DNA of 64,000 nt, taken from NCBI RefSeq assembly GCF_020171745.1, contig NZ_JAIVAH010000004.1, positions 310,001 to 374,000 of the forward strand. Direction: 5' to 3'. Positions 33,377-42,356 of the stretch are shown one piece after another. Each line of letters starts with the position of its first letter. Positions within the stretch are counted from its first letter, which is position 1. The position numbers were made by a program, and so were the translations under genes. The DNA is from Prescottella equi (GTDB lineage: Bacteria > Actinomycetota > Actinomycetes > Mycobacteriales > Mycobacteriaceae). The notes below the pieces were generated by a model. That model was not told where the DNA came from. It ran no database searches and saw nothing but the letters and a program-made list of their open reading frames with translations.

Positions 33377-35028
33377 GTTCCACTGCTTCCAGATTCACCG
33401 TCGCGCAGCTGGTCGGCGCCACCCTCGCCGAGCTCGGCGTCGGGCACGCGTTCGGGGTGGTGGGCAGCGGCAACTTCGCGGTCACCAACGCGCTGATCGC
33501 GGCCGGGGTGCCGTTCGTCGCGGCCCGGCACGAGGGCGGCGCGGCGACGATGGCCGACGCCTACTCGCGGCTGTCGGCACTGCCGGCGGTGGTCACCACC
33601 CATCAGGGCTGCGGGCTCACCAACGCGATCACCGGCATCGGCGAGGCCGCGAAGAGCCGCACCCCGCTGATCGTGCTCACCGCGGACACCGCGGGTTCGG
33701 CGGTGCGGTCGAACTTCCGGATCGACCAGGATGCGTTGGCACGCAGCGTCGGTGCGGTGGCCGAGCGGGTGCATTCGGCGGCGTCGGCGGTGGCCGACAC
33801 CGTCCGCGCCTACCGCACCGCGGTGCGCGAGCGGCGGACGGTCGTTCTGAGTCTGCCGCTGGACGTGCAGGAGCAGGCCGTCCCCGACTCGTGGGCGGTG
33901 CCGCTGCTGCCACCGATCCAGCGGGTGCGCCCGGACGCGGGCGCACTGACGTCACTGGTGGCGCTGCTCGAGCGCGCCGAGCGGCCGGTGTTCGTGGCCG
34001 GTCGCGGTGCCCGCGACGCGGGCCCGCAGCTCGCGGCGCTGGCCGAGCGCACCGGCGCGCTGGTGGCGACGTCGGCGGTGGCCAACGGTTTGTTCGAGGG
34101 GAATCCGTTCTCACTGGGCATCTCCGGCGGCTTCTCCTGCCCGCTCACGGCGGAGCTGATCGCCGGCGCCGACCTGATCGTCGGCTGGGGCTGCGCGCTG
34201 AACATGTGGACGATGCGGCACGGCTGGCTGATCGGCGCCGACGCCACCGTCGTGCAGGTGGACGTCGAGGACGAGGCGCTGGGCGCGAACCGGCCAATCG
34301 ACCTGGGTGTGCTCGGCGACTGCCGCGAGACCGCGGTCGCGGCGCTCGACGCCGTCGGCCCCGCGCGGGCCGGCTACCGCAGCGATGAGGTGCGGGGCCG
34401 CATTGCGGCGCAGGGCCGTTGGAACGACGTTGCTTTCGACGATCTGTCGACGGAGACGACGATCGACCCGCGCCTGCTCTCCCGGGAGCTGGACGCGATC
34501 CTGCCGCGGGAGCGGACCGTGTCGGTGGACTCGGGCAACTTCATGGGCTACCCCAGCGCGTACCTGGGCGTGCCGGACGAGTTCGGCTTCAACTTCACCC
34601 AGGCGTTCCAGTCGATCGGGCTGGGCCTGGCGACGGCGATCGGAACCGCGCTGGCGCAACCGGATCGGCTGCCGGTCGCGGCGCTGGGCGACGGCGGGTT
34701 CCTGATGGGGATCTCCGAGCTGGAGACCGTCGTGAGGCTGGGTCTGCCGATGGTGCTGGTGGTCTACAACGACAGCGCGTACGGCGCGGAGGTCCACCAC
34801 TTCGACGCCCCCGGCACCGATCATTCGGCAGTCACGTTCCCGGACACCGACATTGCGGCGATAGCCCGGGGGTACGGAGCCGAGGCCGTCACGGTACGCT
34901 CGGTCGCCGACCTTGATGCCGCGCGCGCGTGGGTCGCGGGTCCGAGGGTTCGGCCGTTGCTCATCGATGCGAAGGTGAGCTCCGACGGGGGCGCGTGGTG
35001 GCTGGCGGAGGCGTTCAAGGGGCACTGA
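33373..35028 (+). CDS. Thiamine-diphosphate-dependent enzyme (acetolactate synthase-like)
   Basis: Predicted protein of 551 residues with the three-domain layout of the acetolactate synthase/benzoylformate decarboxylase superfamily. The pyrimidine-binding domain has catalytic Glu54 in ARHEGGAATMADAYSR. The central domain covers about 190-330. The diphosphate domain has GDGGFLMGISELETVVRLG through VVYNDSAYG, the GDG-N motif. The flavin site of true acetolactate synthases is not obvious, so decarboxylase, lyase or hydrolase activity is as likely. ATG 33373 overlaps the cyclase gene by four bases. Related enzymes cleave 2-keto acids or cyclic diketones. Confidence 0.87.
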   Translation: MSSTASRFTVAQLVGATLAELGVGHAFGVVGSGNFAVTNALIAAGVPFVAARHEGGAATMADAYSRLSALPAVVTTHQGCGLTNAITGIGEAAKSRTPLIVLTADTAGSAVRSNFRIDQDALARSVGAVAERVHSAASAVADTVRAYRTAVRERRTVVLSLPLDVQEQAVPDSWAVPLLPPIQRVRPDAGALTSLVALLERAERPVFVAGRGARDAGPQLAALAERTGALVATSAVANGLFEGNPFSLGISGGFSCPLTAELIAGADLIVGWGCALNMWTMRHGWLIGADATVVQVDVEDEALGANRPIDLGVLGDCRETAVAALDAVGPARAGYRSDEVRGRIAAQGRWNDVAFDDLSTETTIDPRLLSRELDAILPRERTVSVDSGNFMGYPSAYLGVPDEFGFNFTQAFQSIGLGLATAIGTALAQPDRLPVAALGDGGFLMGISELETVVRLGLPMVLVVYNDSAYGAEVHHFDAPGTDHSAVTFPDTDIAAIARGYGAEAVTVRSVADLDAARAWVAGPRVRPLLIDAKVSSDGGAWWLAEAFKGH

Positions 35029-35122
35029 CTCGACGATCCGTCTTGTTCTCGGCTGAAGAATGCGCAACAGCGAGACAAGCGGCATCGGCTGACCTGCTCG
35101 ACTTCCACATCAGCCGAACAGA

Positions 35123-35169
35123 TTCGGGCGGATTCCAGTGACCGTGAGGTGCACCGGAATCCGCCTGAA
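35123..35169. terminator. Hairpin at the end of the SipW-type operon
   Basis: TTCGGGCGGATTCC (35123-35136) pairs with GGAATCCGCCTGAA (35156-35169) with one G-T pair and a 19-base loop, 10 bases past the stop of the Thr-rich protein gene. No long T-run follows, so efficiency is uncertain; it may also serve the convergent ThDP enzyme gene. Confidence 0.65.
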
Positions 35170-35178
35170 GAGGTTTGG

Positions 35179-36177
35179 TCAGCTGATCGCGCAGTTGGCG
35201 GTGTCGACGTAGCGGACACCGTCGTCGCTGCCGCCAACAGCGATTCTGCCGTCGCCGTGGTCGGCGATCTTCTCCGCGCCACTAACGCTCGCACTGCACT
35301 GTTCCAAACCGGCAGCGAGGATGACGAGATTGCCGTCGATCAGCTTCGCCGACAGTCCATCGCCCAAATCGATCGTGCTTGCAGCCGGACGAGGTTGCGC
35401 CGTCGTGGTGGTCGGCGCTGCTGTCGTACTCAGCGTGGTTGTCAGCTCCGTCGTTGTAGATTCCGTCGTTGCAGATTCCGTCGTTGTCGGAGTTGATGTC
35501 GTGGGCGGCGCAGCCGTCGTCGATTCCGTCGTTGTCGGAGTTGATGTCGTGGTCGGCGCAGCCGTCGTCGATTCCGCCGTTGTGGGCGCGCCCCGGTCGA
35601 AGTTGACCATCTCGCTAGCGCTGGTCACTCCAGGCGGCAATCCCGTACCGGAAGTAGCCGAACCACTGCAATTGACTCGATAAACAGTTGGCTGGTGCAA
35701 AGTCCAGCCAATCCAGTCCGCTGACATCTCACCGCTAATTCGATTCACCGCATAAATTCGGACATAGTAGTTCTTATTGGTGCGTCGACCAACAGTATTT
35801 CCACTCACTCCGTCGAAATAGATTCGAGTGCCCACACTGAGTCCCGATGTATCCTTGTTGGCCTGCGTCTGCGCAACTGAGCCGTCATATAGCACGTACA
35901 TCCTATAGTTGAACGCCTGATTGATGTGCGTCAAACTCACCTGCGAATCATAATTGTCGAGCAAGGCATGTGTGCCGTTCTTGTAGGTGTCGCACCATGC
36001 CTCTGTGGCCCGGGGTAGCACGTTCGCGGCCGCGGACAGCGATCCCGATGTCGCGTTCACCGTATCGGTGCTGGCAGCGCTTGTTTCCACCGCTTGTGAG
36101 ACGCCAAGGACTGTCAGGGCGGCCGCGCATCCGACGAGAATCGTGCGCACGGGACGACGCTTGAAATGGTCAGACAT
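35179..36177 (-). CDS. Exported Thr-rich protein of the SipW-type locus
   Basis: Predicted protein of 332 residues. An N-terminal signal (about 12-36) is followed by TDTVNATSGSLSA, reminiscent of mature ends in SipW-processed proteins. Residues 45-175 form a globular domain rich in Tyr and Asn with Cys62 and Cys170. Residues 199-261 are a Thr/Ser/Pro stalk made of short repeats, likely extended and perhaps glycosylated. A last domain (265-332) has Cys294 and Cys329. ATG 36177 has AGGAGGG upstream and overlaps the second signal-peptidase gene by eight bases. There is no LPXTG motif. I do not recognise the folded domains; a surface adhesin or stalk is only a guess. Confidence 0.8.
   Translation of the reverse strand: MSDHFKRRPVRTILVGCAAALTVLGVSQAVETSAASTDTVNATSGSLSAAANVLPRATEAWCDTYKNGTHALLDNYDSQVSLTHINQAFNYRMYVLYDGSVAQTQANKDTSGLSVGTRIYFDGVSGNTVGRRTNKNYYVRIYAVNRISGEMSADWIGWTLHQPTVYRVNCSGSATSGTGLPPGVTSASEMVNFDRGAPTTAESTTAAPTTTSTPTTTESTTAAPPTTSTPTTTESATTESTTTELTTTLSTTAAPTTTTAQPRPAASTIDLGDGLSAKLIDGNLVILAAGLEQCSASVSGAEKIADHGDGRIAVGGSDDGVRYVDTANCAIS
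35475..35585. repeat. 48-base tandem repeats encoding the Thr-rich stalk
   Basis: ATTCCGTCGTTGTCGG begins at 35475 and again at 35523, with a partial third unit from 35571, a period of 48 bases or 16 codons. A 15-base sub-period precedes it (ATTCCGTCGTTG at 35460 and 35475). The units keep the reading frame, so copy-number changes would alter stalk length only. Confidence 0.85.
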
Positions 36178-36781
36178 GGCTGCCCTCCTGTGGCGGCGAG
36201 AGTTCATCGGCCGCGGCATCGCCGGCCGGCATTTCATCGTTGGTCGCTTGCGTTGTATCGCTGATAGATCGGTTCGGGCCGAACGCGAGCATCATCAAGA
36301 CACCCGCCAGAACCCCTCCGATAAAGATCGCCACTCGACTGGACATCCACGACACGACGTAGCCCAGCGTCGGAACATGGACGAACACCTTCTTGACTTC
36401 GGTGATCGAGTACGGCAGTGGGTCCGCTTGCATGTTGGCGTCACCTTTGAGGATCACCGTCGCGGCATCATCGCCCGAGGGATCGATCGAAACCACACGG
36501 TGTGTGATCGACACTCCTTCTGCGTTCTCGACACTGATGATGTCGCCCTCCTGAACATCCGAGGCAGGGACTGTCTTCGCAAAGGCAAGGGCACCAGTGC
36601 CGATCGTCGGCGACATCGACCCAGAGCGGAAGATCAGTGGCGTGATACCGAAGAAGATCGATACCGCGGCCAGGACAATGCACACGACGCCGGCAGCGGC
36701 GCCAAAATTCAGTGCGATCTCACGCCAACCCCGCCGACGCAGGGGCGCGCCAGGCACATCGTGGTTCGACGTCGAGGACAT
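36170..36781 (-). CDS. SipW-type signal peptidase I (second copy)
   Basis: Predicted protein of 203 residues. A membrane segment (about 27-50) precedes the catalytic Ser55 in FRSGSMSPTI. The usual bacterial lysine is replaced by histidine, His94 in ITHRVV, the hallmark of the SipW/archaeal/ER type. A second membrane segment lies at about 148-170, with an acidic tail after it. It shows clear similarity but low identity to the peptidase at 37417-38109. It starts two bases after the upstream exported-protein stop and overlaps the Thr-rich gene by eight bases. It should cleave signals of locally encoded exported proteins. Confidence 0.88.
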   Translation of the reverse strand: MSSTSNHDVPGAPLRRRGWREIALNFGAAAGVVCIVLAAVSIFFGITPLIFRSGSMSPTIGTGALAFAKTVPASDVQEGDIISVENAEGVSITHRVVSIDPSGDDAATVILKGDANMQADPLPYSITEVKKVFVHVPTLGYVVSWMSSRVAIFIGGVLAGVLMMLAFGPNRSISDTTQATNDEMPAGDAAADELSPPQEGSHV

Positions 36782-36783
36782 GA

Positions 36784-37371
36784 CTACGTACCGATCGCGT
36801 TGAACTCGATGATGGCGGTGGCCGACTTACCGTTGGTGGCCTTGGTGACTCCACCGGAAAGTTGGATCTGGAAGCACAGCGTTTCCGATGGTGCGCTTCC
36901 GCCGAGCGCACGCGCGGTCGTGATCAGCGGCTTCGAGGTACCGACGGCCAGGGTGGTCGAGCCGATGTTCGAACCGTTCGAGCAGGTCTTCGCGTTGCCC
37001 GTTCCGGCCACGGTTGCACCACTGAAAGCGGTCAGCGTGAGGAACCCGGCCATACCCGCGTCGCCCGTCGCTGAGGCCTTGGCGGTGTATGTGAAACTGC
37101 CTGGCCCGGTGTTCTTTACGACGAGGGTTGCCGCCGTCGTCTCCAGGGGCATCAGTCCCGTTGCAGCAAGCGTGGTGAACGCTGCATTGGGACGATCATC
37201 GTTCACCTTCATCTCGATCGGGATGGAACCAACGCTGAAAACGCCAGTCGTCGCGGTCGCACTGCTCGACCATGCCGCCATCGTGCCGACCGCGCCGAGG
37301 CCGAAAACCATGCCTAGGGACAGCACCGCGCGCGTGCGAGTCCACGCGGACTTCCCCATCCGCAGACTCAT
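36784..37371 (-). CDS. SipW-dependent exported protein C
   Basis: Predicted protein of 195 residues. The signal peptide has the SipW pattern, a hydrophobic stretch LSLGMVFGLGAVG followed by TMAAWSSSATATTGVFSVGS. The mature part is Thr/Ala-rich and beta-like, with two Cys, as in TasA/CalY-type proteins. ATG 37371 is chosen because GGAGGGGAG lies directly before it; an ATG at 37407 would add 12 basic residues. It is encoded between the two peptidase genes, two bases from the downstream one. Function unknown; a fibre or matrix subunit is suggested by the family. Confidence 0.82.
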   Translation of the reverse strand: MSLRMGKSAWTRTRAVLSLGMVFGLGAVGTMAAWSSSATATTGVFSVGSIPIEMKVNDDRPNAAFTTLAATGLMPLETTAATLVVKNTGPGSFTYTAKASATGDAGMAGFLTLTAFSGATVAGTGNAKTCSNGSNIGSTTLAVGTSKPLITTARALGGSAPSETLCFQIQLSGGVTKATNGKSATAIIEFNAIGT

Positions 37372-37416
37372 CCGCGCTCCCCTCCGTTGGTCCTGCTGTC
37401 GAGACATTGTGCTGCC

Positions 37417-38109
37417 CTATTTCGTTTCTGTGGTTGATGTCAGGCCCGGGTCCGCGGGACCGTCCGCCGGACCGCCGTTGCCGCTACTGCTGTCGCCGCT
37501 GCCCGCGGGGCGGCTATTCCGGTCTCTGAACGAGCCGCCGAACATCCAGAGTGCATAGCCCGCCAGCGCCACCCCGACGACCGTGACAAGCACCGAGCGG
37601 GACTTGCCGCTCAGCAGTGAGTTCACCCGCCCCAGTTGCGGCACCGAGTACCAGACGCGGCCGCGAACCTGTTCCGGCACAAGCACCCAATCGTCAGCAA
37701 CATTGTTGGCGTCGCCCTTGGTGTAGATCCGCATCTGGCTCTGCGCGTCGTAGTAGATCCCTTCGACGCGATGGGTGACCACCGCCGGGTTCCCCGAGTA
37801 CGGCTGGAATGTGATGACATCGCCGGCGCTCAAGTCCGCTGCCGGAGTCGGCTTTACGACCACCAGCGTGCCTGGCGGCAGGCCGGGCTCCATCGAACCG
37901 GTGAGCACCGTGTAGGGGGTTGCCCCCGACAGTCGCGGTACGACCACCATCGCCAGCAGCACGGCCCCCACCGCCAGCAACAACACCCACGAGACGATGT
38001 TGCGCACCCACCACCACACCGAGGTCGCGTCCGAATCTCCGGACGCCACCTTCTCGAGAGCATGGCGGGCGCCGTCTGAAGTGGGATCGGCTGCTTCGAC
38101 GGACGTCAT
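37417..38109 (-). CDS. SipW-type signal peptidase I (first copy)
   Basis: Predicted protein of 230 residues. The membrane segment at about 38-58 is followed by PYTVLTGSMEPGL with catalytic Ser72 and by VTHRVEG with His113 in place of lysine. KGDANN and VWYSVPQLG are further SipW-family blocks; a second membrane segment is near 180-200, with a Gly/Ser/Pro-rich tail. ATG 38109 overlaps the stop of the upstream exported-protein gene (ATGA), so its synthesis is coupled to that of a probable substrate. Confidence 0.9.
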   Translation of the reverse strand: MTSVEAADPTSDGARHALEKVASGDSDATSVWWWVRNIVSWVLLLAVGAVLLAMVVVPRLSGATPYTVLTGSMEPGLPPGTLVVVKPTPAADLSAGDVITFQPYSGNPAVVTHRVEGIYYDAQSQMRIYTKGDANNVADDWVLVPEQVRGRVWYSVPQLGRVNSLLSGKSRSVLVTVVGVALAGYALWMFGGSFRDRNSRPAGSGDSSSGNGGPADGPADPGLTSTTETK

Positions 38110-38654
38110 CGATCTACTACCGCTCCGAACGTGAACTTGGCGGTGGCGCTCTGGCCGCTGGTCGCAGTCGAACCCAGCGTGGCCCGCAGGCAGAGTACCT
38201 CGGACGCACCCGACGCCACCTGTCTCTGTGGTGTCGTGGCGCCGCTCATGGCTCCGGTCTCGTAAAGCGTGGTACCCGTGAGAGTTCCCGAACTGCACGC
38301 AGCCGCCGACGCGACCTTGACGATCTTCAGGTCGATCGGGGGTGCAGTCTTTGTCGGCGATGGCGTGACAACCACCGACTGCAACTTGTAGCCCATCTGC
38401 ACGTTGCCGGTGTTGAACACCTCAAGGGGCTTCGAGACGCTCTCGCCAGGCTGCTTGTCCTGCAGCTTGAAGTCGGACAGATCGAACGCCTTGTCGTTGA
38501 TCTGGCCGGCCGAGATATCTAGTCTGCCGGTGTGAATCGTGGTGGGCGCAGTTGTCTTGGAATCACTCCAGGCGGCGCCGGTCGCCTGCACTGAGGCGAA
38601 CCCCAGAGCCAGGACCGACGCCGCCGCGAGCGCCCACTTGTAGTGAGACTTCAC
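38106..38654 (-). CDS. SipW-dependent exported protein B
   Basis: Predicted protein of 182 residues. The signal is MKSHYKWALAAASVLALGFA followed by SVQATGAAWSDSKTT, fitting the SipW-type G-x-x-W-S/T-D rule. The mature part contains GRLDISAGQIN, LEVFNTGNVQMGYKLQ and C-terminal SGQSATAKFTFGAVV, a beta-rich pattern like the TasA/CalY group. GTG 38654 has AAAGGAA upstream. Its stop overlaps the first peptidase start by four bases. It follows protein A by nine bases. Confidence 0.82.
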   Translation of the reverse strand: MKSHYKWALAAASVLALGFASVQATGAAWSDSKTTAPTTIHTGRLDISAGQINDKAFDLSDFKLQDKQPGESVSKPLEVFNTGNVQMGYKLQSVVVTPSPTKTAPPIDLKIVKVASAAACSSGTLTGTTLYETGAMSGATTPQRQVASGASEVLCLRATLGSTATSGQSATAKFTFGAVVDR

Positions 38655-38663
38655 AGGGTTCCT

Positions 38664-39191
38664 TTACGGAGTAGCAGCCGCCGGAGCCGTCTGCTTCAGG
38701 GTGACCGCAACATCGCTGATGTCAATCGTCTTGTTCATCGAACCGGTCTCGGTCCCAGCGAAAGTGAGCGTTCCGGTGACGGTGACCTCGGTGCCATCGT
38801 CTTCCTCGTCGAGACCAGTCAGGTTCCCTGCGGAACCGTCGGTGCTGAAAGTAAGGCCAGAGGGCAGCGCGCCGCCGCTCAAAGTACCGACAGTGAGATT
38901 GGCCGTAAGGTTCGTACCCTCAATACCGAGAACGTAGGTCCCCGTGTAGGTCACGGAGTCGCCGGGGACGAGAGTCTGCGTCGCGGGATCGAAGGTGCCG
39001 GTCTTACCCGGGGTGCTCCACTCCCATCCCGCAGTCGTTCCGGACTTCTGCGTGACGGTCAGGTGGCCGGACTTGATGTCGGCTCCAGTCACGGACTCGG
39101 AAGCCGTCCACGCCGCCATCGTGCCCGCACCACCAGCAAGGAGCACGGCGGCAGCACCGGCCGCGATTGCGCCCTTGGTCTTCTTGTTCAT
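38664..39191 (-). CDS. Alternate-signal exported protein A (RER_14450-like)
   Basis: Predicted protein of 175 residues, first gene of the SipW-type operon. Its N-terminus, KGAIAAGAAAVLLAGGAG then TMAAWTASESVTG, matches the alternate signal-mediated exported family that I recall as named after R. erythropolis RER_14450. The mature domain is Thr/Gly-rich, with LVPGDSVTYTGTY, GTNLTANLTV and TVTGTLTFAGTETGSM. No Cys, anchor or sortase signal is present, so it is either released or polymerised. The divergent lipoprotein at 40051 shares the VPGD-TY-G-Y and GT-L-A-LTV blocks. Confidence 0.85.
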   Translation of the reverse strand: MNKKTKGAIAAGAAAVLLAGGAGTMAAWTASESVTGADIKSGHLTVTQKSGTTAGWEWSTPGKTGTFDPATQTLVPGDSVTYTGTYVLGIEGTNLTANLTVGTLSGGALPSGLTFSTDGSAGNLTGLDEEDDGTEVTVTGTLTFAGTETGSMNKTIDISDVAVTLKQTAPAAATP

Positions 39192-40050
39192 GTCGCACGT
39201 TCTTTCTGTCGAGACACCGCCCCGCCGCGTGTCAGGTTGTCGCACCGCCACAGTGTGGCTGTTCGTAGCCGACTGTTTGTTTCGCACAGCCGTTTTGGCG
39301 CGCAGAGGCACACCCCCTGCGTTAACCGAGTGTCGAACTTCGGCACCCACCCCACACTCCGCCTGACCAGGCCATGGGCATGGACAACGCCGCGAGCAGA
39401 ACTGGTGGATCCCGCATTTCCACGGCACCCCGACACCAACCGACGAGTCGGACGTCCGTTCAGGAAGGAAGATATGGCACCAACTGCACCCCTGTCCAAG
39501 GATTGGCCAAATCTCCGTTAATTCTTCAACCGGACGGTCGCCACTTTAGCGACACGACTGCCATCCACCCGACGCCCACCCTGCCGCCGGACCCAGCAAT
39601 GCCACACCGCGCCACCTTCGTTCAACGCCGATCGTGCCGGCGAAGCTGAACAGCCACGCGCCGAGATCAATTCGCCACCACCGACCCCAACAGCCAGCTC
39701 CGAGCCGAAGGGTTCATCCGAATATGGACGATTGACCAGTTCTTGTTACAGATGAGCCGCTCGGGTGCTAGAAATAGCTGCGCAAGAACCGGAGGGTTCG
39801 GACAGCGGTCGGCCAAGCGCGCCTACACAGCGACCGCAGCGCGCGCCAAGCATGACCCAACGTGTAGGACTTCATCGACAACATTCGGCCGCCATCGTCC
39901 TGCGGTGCGGTCCGCAATGTTTGTCGGTACCAGAGGGGGAGCTCGACAGGTGACGCAAGCGCCAGCAGGCGGGCGAGACTCTCACCGAGAACCCGACCGA
40001 TCCAATCGAATCAGCGGCGAGTGCCTGAACCGAGACAACTGAGAGAACCG
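39192..40050. other. 860-base gene-free leader between the SipW operon and the lipoprotein gene
   Basis: No frame here has good codon bias, a ribosome binding site and family similarity together; open frames at 39374-39649 (+) and 39743-40042 (+) look accidental. The G+C content appears lower than in neighbouring genes, and third positions show no bias. The region must hold the divergent promoters. Its length suggests long leader RNAs, a small RNA or several regulator sites, but no known riboswitch, tRNA or strong hairpin is recognised. Confidence 0.6.
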
Positions 40051-40644
40051 ATGCAGACATACAAGAAGGCCCTGGCTGCCGGTGTTGCGATCAGCGCCGC
40101 GCTGTTGACCTCCGCGTGCGATCCGACCGGCAGCCTCGGCAGCGGAAGTGCCGGTGGCGCAACCACCACCACGCCGGCCGGACCCACTACGACGGCACCC
40201 CCGACGACGATCGGTGGAGGCGGCAACGGGTCGGGCTCGCTCTCGATCACACAGGTCACCGCACCCACGTGGAGCGATCAGAACGGCCCGATCAACATTT
40301 CGACTTTCCGCATCGTTCCCGGTGACGTCCTCACATACAAGGGCAGCTACCGGATCAACCTCTCCGGGACCGACCTGAAGGCGAAGCTCACCGTCGACGA
40401 CATCACTTTCACCGGCGGCGGCCAGCTCAAGGGCAAGCTGCAGCCCCAGGTGACCGCGACCATCGGCGGCAACGTCGTCCCCGGCGGGCCCACGGGCATC
40501 GTCGTCACCCCCACCCAGAACAACGCGATCGTCGACGTGGCAGCCAAGTTCACGTTCGATCCGCAGACCTCCGGCATTGTCGGACAGGCCGACTCGGCGA
40601 ACTTCGCGGACTTCCGCGTCCGACTCGAGCAGGTCATCTCCTAG
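40051..40644 (+). CDS. Lipoprotein related to exported protein A
   Basis: Predicted protein of 197 residues. The signal ends in the lipobox LLTSAC (Cys at about 23), then a Gly/Thr/Pro linker (about 24-60). The mature domain repeats features of exported protein A: RIVPGDVLTYKGSYRINLSGTDLKAKLTVDD against LVPGDSVTYTGTY and GTNLTANLTV. It is therefore a lipid-anchored member of the same fold. ATG 40051 has GAGAGAA upstream. It is transcribed away from the SipW-type operon across an 860-base gap and ends at a terminator. It might anchor or nucleate a structure made of protein A. Confidence 0.8.
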   Translation: MQTYKKALAAGVAISAALLTSACDPTGSLGSGSAGGATTTTPAGPTTTAPPTTIGGGGNGSGSLSITQVTAPTWSDQNGPINISTFRIVPGDVLTYKGSYRINLSGTDLKAKLTVDDITFTGGGQLKGKLQPQVTATIGGNVVPGGPTGIVVTPTQNNAIVDVAAKFTFDPQTSGIVGQADSANFADFRVRLEQVIS

Positions 40645-40659
40645 TTCCCGAACAGACTC

Positions 40660-40696
40660 GAGGCCACCGGCGGACCCCCTCCCAGCCGGTGGCCTC
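40660..40696 (+). terminator. Terminator of the lipoprotein gene
   Basis: GAGGCCACCGGC (40660-40671) pairs exactly with 40685-40696, with a 13-base loop, followed by AATTCTC; it starts 16 bases after the stop. Confidence 0.88.
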
Positions 40697-40703
40697 AATT
40701 CTC

Positions 40704-40760
40704 ATTCCCGCGCCCTCCCGATCCGGCACCGGAGTCGGGTGAACGACGTTGCGCGGGAAT
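40704..40760. repeat. Long imperfect hairpin
   Basis: ATTCCCGCGC at 40704-40713 is the exact complement of 40751-40760, and CCGATCCGG/CCGGAGTCGG pair inside. It lies right after the lipoprotein terminator and may be a second terminator. Confidence 0.55.
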
Positions 40761-40789
40761 GGGCCGCGTGCGCGCCCCTGTCGCACGCC

Positions 40790-40831
40790 ACGCAGCGCCG
40801 GTTCATCACCCCCCATGAACCGGCGCTGCGT
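40790..40831. repeat. Perfect 17-base intergenic palindrome
   Basis: ACGCAGCGCCGGTTCAT and its exact complement enclose an eight-base C-rich loop. It lies between two converging transcription units; no T-run follows on the plus strand. Confidence 0.75.
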
Positions 40832-40882
40832 CATATCCGCCTTGCCGAGACACCGAACCTGCCTAGCCGACCCGAAAATGGC

Positions 40883-40937
40883 GAACGGGCGGTTGTCCGG
40901 CTATCGGCCGAGGGCCGTGCCGAACAACCGCCCGTTC
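40883..40937 (-). terminator. Terminator of the minus-strand exported-protein gene
   Basis: GAACGGGCGGTTGT (40883-40896) pairs with 40924-40937; read on the minus strand it lies 19 bases past the stop and is followed by CCATTTTC. Confidence 0.75.
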
Positions 40938-40955
40938 AGGGTCGGTAGGACGAAA

Positions 40956-41585
40956 TTAAGACGCGAGGCTGCCCGAGCTACCTGCGCCGGCGAAGAGGCA
41001 GGACAGCGAGCCCAAGGAACCGCTCGGGACACAGCCCGGATCGGGCAGTTCTTCAGGGGTGAAGCCGACGGCCCACATCGGGTTGGCATGACCGTTCTGG
41101 GTGCCGTTGTTGGCGTCGGCCGGCATGCCGACGACGAGGTCGATGTTCGCAGTGGCACCGGGCTCGAGATGGACCGAGCGGACCTCCGCACCCGGCGCCA
41201 CGGCGCCACCGTCGGTCAGCGTCACCGACGTTCCGGCGTTCCCGTCGACGTCCACCCGCACGCTGGCGATCATCCCGGGCGACACCGTGTACTTGCCCAC
41301 CGCGAAACCGACCCAGCCCGCGACACCGGAGGCGTTGCGCACCTGGAAGGTGGTCTTCAGCTCCTCGCCGGGCACCAGCAGGCCGTTGTTCCACGAGATC
41401 TTCTCGGTGCCGCCCCACGTGGCGCCGTTGTCGGACGAGTACTCGACCGTCGCGGGCTCGTCGGCGCGCGCGACGGACGGCACGGCGATCACGGCGAGGG
41501 CCGAGAGGAACAGCGCAAGCAGCAAGGCGCCCAGGAGCTTGCCCGGCAGCGACAGCGCCCCGGACACACGGGTGATAGCGGTCAT
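40956..41585 (-). CDS. Exported protein with GSLGSL tail
   Basis: Predicted protein of 209 residues. A signal peptide of about 42 residues ends PSVARA. The mature domain looks like a beta-sandwich, with WGGTEKISWNNGLLVPGEELKTTFQVRNAS and VTLTDGGAVAPGAEVRSVHLEPGATANIDLVVGMPA, resembling the conserved extracellular domain of actinobacterial cell-surface proteins. Two Cys lie near the end. The C-terminus contains GSLGSLS and ends SSGSLAS, a motif also seen in two secreted propellers in this window. It may be surface-associated. Function unknown. Confidence 0.78.
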   Translation of the reverse strand: MTAITRVSGALSLPGKLLGALLLALFLSALAVIAVPSVARADEPATVEYSSDNGATWGGTEKISWNNGLLVPGEELKTTFQVRNASGVAGWVGFAVGKYTVSPGMIASVRVDVDGNAGTSVTLTDGGAVAPGAEVRSVHLEPGATANIDLVVGMPADANNGTQNGHANPMWAVGFTPEELPDPGCVPSGSLGSLSCLFAGAGSSGSLAS

Positions 41586-41700
41586 TTCGCGGAGCCTAGA
41601 GCAGCAAACCTGGCCAAGCGTCCAATTCGGCGATATTGGATGCGTCACGCGAGTCGAACTGGCGTGCACCGCCCCGCCACGAGTGGCCTACCGTGGTGTT

Positions 41701-41940
41701 GTGACGAAAGAATCGAACCGCAACACCGCCGGCGCCTCCACCGAGCCCGGCAAGGGACTGTTTTATGCGGCAGTCGTCAGCTTCCTGATCGGTATCGCGG
41801 CCATCGTCGCCATCTTCTTCGTCCACTCGCTCTCCGAGGGCGACCCCGGTCTGGTTCTCTACTTCATGACGCTGGCGTGCCCGCTCGGCTTCGTGCTCGC
41901 CATCGCATACGCCCTCCGCTCCGGCCGCCGGAGTCACTGA
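41701..41940 (+). CDS. Small two-segment membrane protein
   Basis: Predicted protein of 79 residues with membrane segments at about 19-42 and 51-73, a polar N-terminus and the basic end RSGRRSH. GTG 41701 is the first suitable start. It precedes the yccF gene by 11 bases and is probably co-transcribed with it. No family is recognised. Confidence 0.7.
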   Translation: MTKESNRNTAGASTEPGKGLFYAAVVSFLIGIAAIVAIFFVHSLSEGDPGLVLYFMTLACPLGFVLAIAYALRSGRRSH

Positions 41941-41951
41941 AAGGAACGACC

Positions 41952-42356
41952 ATGAGGATCCTGCTGAACATCATCTGGCTGATCTTCGGCGGCCTGTGGC
42001 TGGCGCTGGGCTACTTCCTGGCCGGCGTCGTCATGTGCATCCTCATCATCACGATCCCATTCGGTATCGCGGCGTTCCGCATCGGCGTCTACGCGCTGTG
42101 GCCGTTCGGCAAGACCGTCGTCGACAAGCCGACCGCGGGCGTGGGCTCGCTCATCGGCAACGTCATCTGGCTGATCCTCGCGGGCATCTGGCTCGCGATC
42201 GGCCACATCGTGTCCGCCATCGCGATGGCCATCACGATCATCGGCATCCCGTTGGCGATCGCGAACCTCAAGATGATCCCGATCTCGCTGATGCCGCTCG
42301 GCAAGGAGATCGTCGACGTCGGGTCCCGCGATCAGGCGCAGTGGTCCCCCGCCTGA
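41952..42356 (+). CDS. yccF: YccF-domain membrane protein
   Basis: Predicted protein of 134 residues. It consists of two YccF repeats, each with NIIWLIFGGLWLALGY-like and ITIPFGIAAFRIGVYALWPFG-like segments, giving about four membrane segments. Family members are inner-membrane proteins of unknown function; the counterpart I recall is M. tuberculosis Rv0870c, which neighbours cspB there. Here about 10.6 kb separates it from cspB. ATG 41952 has AAGGAA upstream. Confidence 0.9.
   Translation: MRILLNIIWLIFGGLWLALGYFLAGVVMCILIITIPFGIAAFRIGVYALWPFGKTVVDKPTAGVGSLIGNVIWLILAGIWLAIGHIVSAIAMAITIIGIPLAIANLKMIPISLMPLGKEIVDVGSRDQAQWSPA

Follow-up and report, generated by a model that had tools for sequence, protein, structure and literature searches.

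A 64,000-nucleotide stretch of the Prescottella equi contig NZ_JAIVAH010000004.1 (positions 310,001 to 374,000; hereafter the window) carries a minus-strand operon that we read as an actinobacterial SipW-dependent fibre-export system of the TasA/BsaA kind, giving a probability of about 60% to this reading together with the mechanism proposed below. The genes, in the order A-B-S1-C-S2-D (39191-35179), encode the putatively exported proteins A, B and C, two signal peptidases (S1 and S2) and a Thr-stalk protein (D), and a lipoprotein gene runs divergently. This layout agrees with the original prediction, which was made from the sequence alone, except for its spacing of 2-45 bases or overlaps: the starts used here give 9, -4, 9, 2 and -8 nucleotides. 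The ATG of S1 thus overlaps B by 4 nucleotides, and that of D, preceded by AGGAGG, overlaps S2 by 8. The notable point of the locus is a peptidase-substrate fusion, found in its relatives, from which D of the window appears to have been split off as the C-terminal part of S2.

Family searches link both peptidases and their neighbours to SipW-type export. S1 and S2 score 83.9 and 65.7 bits against TIGR02228 (archaeal-type signal peptidase; cut-off 51.85), and 72.7 and 57.5 bits against the Bacillus SipW equivalog NF046067 (cut-off 190), to which they are related while standing outside it. A reaches 118.4 bits against TIGR04089 (cut-off 60) and the lipoprotein 79 bits; this locus holds the only TIGR04089 and TIGR02228 matches in the 5.49-Mb genome. 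Among the locus proteins, the SipW-type signal TIGR04088 (cut-off 19) is matched by A (26.9 bits) and C (24.8 bits), with B below the cut-off (14.9 bits; 17.5 in the genome search) and no match in D of the window. Genome-wide the best three matches are A (30.2 bits), C (28.6) and B (17.5); the only two above the cut-off, A and C, both lie in this locus, and the lead of B over two matches elsewhere (15.7 and 14.1 bits) is small. As predicted, both peptidases carry Ser/His instead of Ser/Lys: all 17 aligned S2 rows have the catalytic Ser (GSM) and His (THR) without exception, and the same motifs are seen by eye in S1. Trp occupies the presumed P2' position in all 34 B/C rows and in all 19 A rows with a SipW-type signal. 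We consider it very probable that A, B, C and D are exported by a SipW-type system; the cut sites and the preference of each peptidase given here are putative. The predicted lack of a sortase holds for the operon and not for the genome, which has three, all on other contigs. No LPXTG was seen by eye at the C-termini of the locus proteins, again as predicted, and with neither sortase nor LPXTG in the locus we do not count it among sortase-assembled pili. The label RER_14450 for an exported family of this type comes from the original prediction; no search made here returned it.

Linkage was compared in 19 fetched stretches plus the window; among the former, nothing matched in L053 (a contig end), and L059 gave A and S1 alone. 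B immediately precedes S1 in all 18 loci that have the two genes, and C immediately precedes S2 in 17 of 18, the exception being L042, where S2 stands apart and D follows C. S1 and S2 form two clades with 100/100 support (18 and 17 rows), as do B and C (100/100; 18 rows each), and the proposed alternation of two peptidases with likely substrates is borne out by the pairs B-S1 and C-S2. L055 and L056 have the order A-C-S2-A-B-S1, which resembles the outcome of a unit of A, substrate and peptidase being duplicated in tandem. In R. erythropolis the genes run A-B-S1-C-S2D-lipoprotein-E. Searching named genomes with the S2 alignment gave 79 loci (the best 80 of 465 confirmed stretches; some genomes contribute two), over which the predicted linkage is conserved. 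Hidden Markov models (HMMs, E <= 1e-3), whose calls lean partly on the shared signal, detected S1 in 73, A in 72 and B or C in all 79, and C precedes S2 in 67 of the 70 loci where our position rule located S2. The gene before S1 is B in 41 of 75 named loci and A in 29, so B is absent from many sets, above all those of Nocardioides and Aeromicrobium. In Aeromicrobium L112, L117 and L122, two tandem sets have an extra S2 between them, and two genomes of the genus hold a second A-B-S1-C-S2D set elsewhere (L045 in G301, L051 in G306).

The fusion was found in both collections. Among the fetched stretches S2 measures 504-647 residues in ten loci, and 194-204 residues with D behind it in six, the window included (the D gene of L047 was read from the same record as L074); L043 is frameshifted, and in L042 S2 and D lie apart. 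By eye, the fused chain consists of a membrane segment, the Ser/His domain, a second membrane segment, a cytosolic linker, a signal (for example GTSAAFTDSATAKSGTL) and D. S2 continues into an extension in 63 of the 79 named loci, 60 of them with an anchored SipW-type-like internal signal (a contig end truncates two of the 60); in the tails of L088, L142 and L144 the anchoring rule found no signal. The remaining loci are split, with D as the next gene (10/79), have no D directly behind S2 (5/79) or are frameshifted (1/79). As a control, tails of more than 120 residues occur in 3 of 79 S1-type open reading frames (ORFs) versus 68 of 91 S2-type ORFs, and no internal signal was found in S1-type tails longer than 60 residues. 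In Rhodococcus L089, L090, L093 and L099, C-S2 is present twice in a row, the first S2 without D behind it.

With four S1 rows as the root of the S2 tree, one clade takes in 58 rows (94/83) and the other 25 are all fused, so fusion is likely the ancestral state within the S2 clade, with splitting on several occasions; the clade of 58 contains 39 fused, 13 split and 5 lone forms and 1 unassigned. In the tree, S2 of the window groups with that of Tomitella, a split form (99/98). Beyond the S2 clade fusion is not the rule, as only 7 of 37 S2-like matches in a phylum sample, taken down to weak relatives, lie in open frames of more than 400 residues. The frame of D, continuous with S2 in relatives, ruled out the candidate explanation of D as an unrelated Thr-stalk adhesin. 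D thus keeps the Thr-rich stalk and probable export originally ascribed to it and is, in addition, apparently a remnant of a peptidase fusion; that it is a SipW-type substrate once joined to S2 we regard as likely.

Evidence on the internal signal came from an HMM built from 55 of the 60 fused rows, which was run on 1743 ORFs of the 19 fetched stretches, window genes not among them; named records recognised among the searched stretches were excluded. The row set from the named loci left out L079, L085, L088, L142 and L144, and the four Rhodococcus loci with S2 but no D directly behind were excluded by a length rule. The top 44 matches are exclusively A, B, C, D and S2-fusion ORFs (ranks 42-44 at E 0.1-0.7), the first outsider appearing at rank 45 (E 1.1); some A and B rows are missed, and no lipobox form is among the 75 rows of output. 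TIGR04088 matches 5 of 34 fused D segments of relatives (E <= 0.1; best 7.4e-5). The reverse test, an HMM of A/B/C signals (built without the C row of L052, which had no anchor by rule) run on D, was weak, with 6.8 bits at best. Where the genes are split, a similar segment forms the N-terminus of D and is there a free signal. An aromatic residue occupies P2' in 47 of 60 fused versus 3 of 10 split forms, a difference (Fisher p 0.004) that is confounded by kinship and on which we do not rely. The domain behind the internal signal is Fn3-like in the aligned relatives (PDB 3mpc, E 8.4e-6; Pfam fn3 in 4 of 34) and has one invariant and one nearly invariant Cys.

B and C resemble TasA and BsaA, two polymer-forming proteins, to which the B/C rows show weak family matches; the BsaA family model weakly matches 7 of 34 rows, and B scores 14.9 bits against the TasA equivalog NF046066, far from its cut-off of 450. 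A Cys pair is invariant in the B/C alignment. In the structural model of B the N-terminal segment after the presumed cut site is unordered, and a second-look fold ranking put TasA first, tied with unrelated rows by the rule of the tool; we hold this likeness, and a TasA-like fold predicted for B, to be moderately supported. Archaeal bundling pili (7ueg) and the Sulfolobus 0406 filament (7pnb) appear at ranks 27 and 32 of the Foldseek list for B, weakly and among many unrelated folds. The original claim of one fold for A and the lipoprotein is in keeping with their common family TIGR04089.

Among known systems, tapA-sipW-tasA of B. subtilis, as described in PMC9674648 and PMC10151520, shares a SipW-type peptidase beside its substrates, overlapping peptidase and substrate genes, a TasA-like subunit as modelled for B with an unordered N-terminal segment, and a locus without a sortase. 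It differs from the present locus, which has two peptidases of two clades rather than one, the invariant B/C Cys pair, the TIGR04089 family of A, a lipoprotein relative of A and, in its relatives, one peptidase fused to a Fn3-like likely substrate. The sipW-bsaABCRSD operon of C. perfringens shares a SipW-dependent polymer-forming matrix protein; our operon, unlike it, has two peptidases and no two-component genes, and the accessible part of PMC7395162 describes no peptidase fusion. The TasA/CalY/CapP filaments of B. cereus likewise have two related subunits and are sortase-independent; the abstract of PMC13082335 mentions neither a second peptidase nor a lipoprotein relative nor a peptidase fusion.

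The lipoprotein is present in 11 of 14 genomes of the genus (not in G306 and G310; G308 was not assessable), and its rows make up one clade inside the A family (11/11, 100/100). Where A has its SipW-type signal and the segment after it, the lipoprotein has the lipobox TSAC, with a Thr/Gly linker in the position of the donor-like segment. Since it keeps the A domain without that segment, its natural reading would be an acceptor-only end subunit. Lipobox forms of the A family, L070 8563-9351 among them, were also found in R. erythropolis, R. tukisamuensis, Rhodococcus sp. P-2 and sp. IEGM 1409. A role for the lipoprotein as the A partner of C-S2 was rejected: in the tree it is placed next to the A found ahead of B in two relatives (99/95), and in R. 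tukisamuensis a lipobox form itself sits at the place of A before B.

We propose the following mechanism. A, B, C and D would leave the cell via SipW-type signals, S1 cutting chiefly B (and A) and S2 chiefly C and D. Cutting would release an N-terminal segment, which in TasA is the donor strand, and B and C, their donor segments being freed, could polymerise outside the membrane by donor-strand exchange. D, with its signal and donor-like segment, Fn3-like domain and stalk, would ancestrally be the C-terminal part of S2, so the peptidase would deliver one likely substrate in cis, probably a TapA-like starter or platform; in the window genome the fusion would have been split into the overlapping genes S2 and D. 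The lipoprotein may cap or anchor the fibre at the membrane. We think it somewhat probable that the locus makes fibres, and put forward the cutting of S2-D in cis only tentatively. No less tentative is the fullest form of the proposal, in which S2-D is a self-processing polyprotein that frees a donor strand and initiates the fibre at the export site, the donor-less lipoprotein ends the fibre as a membrane anchor, and the whole is an old actinobacterial machine, patchily kept, with cassettes swapped between species. Of the fibre or surface layer at a lipid anchor that was originally envisaged, kinship with SipW/TasA-type export systems is retained, and fibres and anchor stay conditional.

Several results weigh against this proposal: 13 of the 60 fused forms lack an aromatic residue at P2', D of the window has Ser there, the model of A gives general fold matches only, and the lead of TasA for B is a tie. 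The first would suit a rather unlikely alternative in which S2-D stays uncut, its third membrane segment serving as an anchor and its Fn3-like ectodomain as a fixed module for sensing or docking that keeps C or the growing polymer close to the active site; a likely ancestral fusion, kept in several families, is in keeping with a covalent link that matters. This alternative is opposed by the TIGR04088 matches to internal segments, whose HMM retrieves the signals of A, B and C, and by the split forms, whose D with a free N-terminal signal means that the covalent link is not always needed. The two structural results would fit, at slightly longer odds still, a secreted set that does not polymerise, made of separate surface- or wall-bound beta-sandwich binding proteins sharing an unusual export route. 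Divergence against conserved flanks (see below) agrees with such variable surface binders, whereas the place of TasA at the head of the list for B, the unordered N-terminus of that model and the weak B/C matches to polymer formers speak for fibres. That the housekeeping canonical peptidase LepB, of which one clear copy (133 bits) lies on another contig, processes everything, with S1 and S2 dispensable, is favoured by the Ser in D of the window and is most improbable in view of the invariant Ser and His of S2, the Trp at P2' in A, B and C rows, the inefficiency of LepB with an aromatic P2' residue reported in the abstract of PMC10269814 (which, for TasA, places the block on a Trp at P2) and the retention of TIGR04089 in 14 of 14 genus genomes (13 over the cut-off; the weakest, G308, is cut by a contig end).

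The system is wide but patchy in Actinobacteria, as follows from its occurrence and linkage in the named loci and in the order and phylum samples. TIGR04089 was found in 8 of 298 genomes of the order sample (5 over the cut-off) and an S2-like match (E <= 1e-15) in 30 of 296 genomes of the phylum sample; TIGR04089 had no match in 14 control genomes, B. subtilis included, and A had no close relative in the viral contigs searched. The 79 loci come from Rhodococcus, Rhodococcoides, Prescottella, Gordonia, Dietzia, Nocardia, Tomitella, Nocardioides, Aeromicrobium, Marmoricola, Cryobacterium, Frigoribacterium, Arthrobacter, Glutamicibacter, Psychromicrobium and others. A literature search over titles and abstract openings found no paper on this locus, and those of the part of the matches inspected describe no such peptidase-substrate fusion. 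If our reading is true, the TasA-type, sortase-free fibre route reaches widely, if patchily, into the Actinobacteria, mycolate-bearing cells among them, and gains two peptidases with set neighbours; the natural fusion, with split forms as counter-examples, would allow a test of fibre initiation by cutting in cis. A further suggestion is that S2-type proteins annotated as 'signal peptidase I' and about 500-650 residues long bear an exported domain behind an internal signal.

The operon has diverged far more than its surroundings. Compared with the P. equi locus L044, the cyclase, TPP enzyme, lipoprotein, E, YccF and Rpf proteins (cyclase, TPP enzyme, YccF and Rpf being names assigned by us) are 84-96% identical, against 43-53% for A, B, S1, C and S2; D has no match in the identity table and 29% identity by tblastn. 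The G+C content of the operon is about 63-65%, versus 69% for the window. B, S1, C and S2 of the window are closer to Tomitella than to P. equi, and L042 is about as near as Tomitella for C and S2 (50 and 59%). Between L041 and L042, identity is 73-86% for A, B and S1 and only 39% for C, so that A-B-S1 and C-S2 appear to have separate histories there. From these comparisons the operon is best read as a divergent cassette replaced by recombination, in units that would follow the B-S1 / C-S2 pairing.

Table 1. Features of the locus, in positions of the window.
Feature	Position	Strand	Remarks
A: putatively exported, SipW-type signal, TIGR04089 family, predicted beta-sandwich	38664-39191	-	175 residues
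B: putatively exported subunit resembling TasA/BsaA, sub-cut-off SipW-type signal, Cys pair	38106-38654	-	182 residues, GTG start
S1: stand-alone SipW-type Ser/His signal peptidase, directly behind B	37417-38109	-	230 residues
C: B paralogue with SipW-type signal, directly before S2	36784-37407	-	207 residues
S2: SipW-type Ser/His signal peptidase of the clade often fused to D	36170-36781	-	203 residues
D: SipW-type-like signal, Fn3-like domain (judged from relatives), Thr-rich stalk, C-terminal domain	35179-36177	-	332 residues
N-terminal signal region of D, internal to the S2-D polypeptide in fused relatives	36028-36177	-	
Lipoprotein relative of A: lipobox TSAC, Thr/Gly linker, A-like domain	40051-40644	+	longer ORF from 40021
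E: putatively exported protein, possible accessory part	40956-41669	-	adjoins the locus in many relatives

E has no family match above chance, and its HMM, at a loose threshold, matches in 49 of the 79 named loci. A tRNA scan of the window found none, and an Rfam scan of 34900-42000 gave no match. The scanned region includes the roughly 0.86 kb (39192-40050) that separate A from the divergent lipoprotein gene and may hold the promoters of both.

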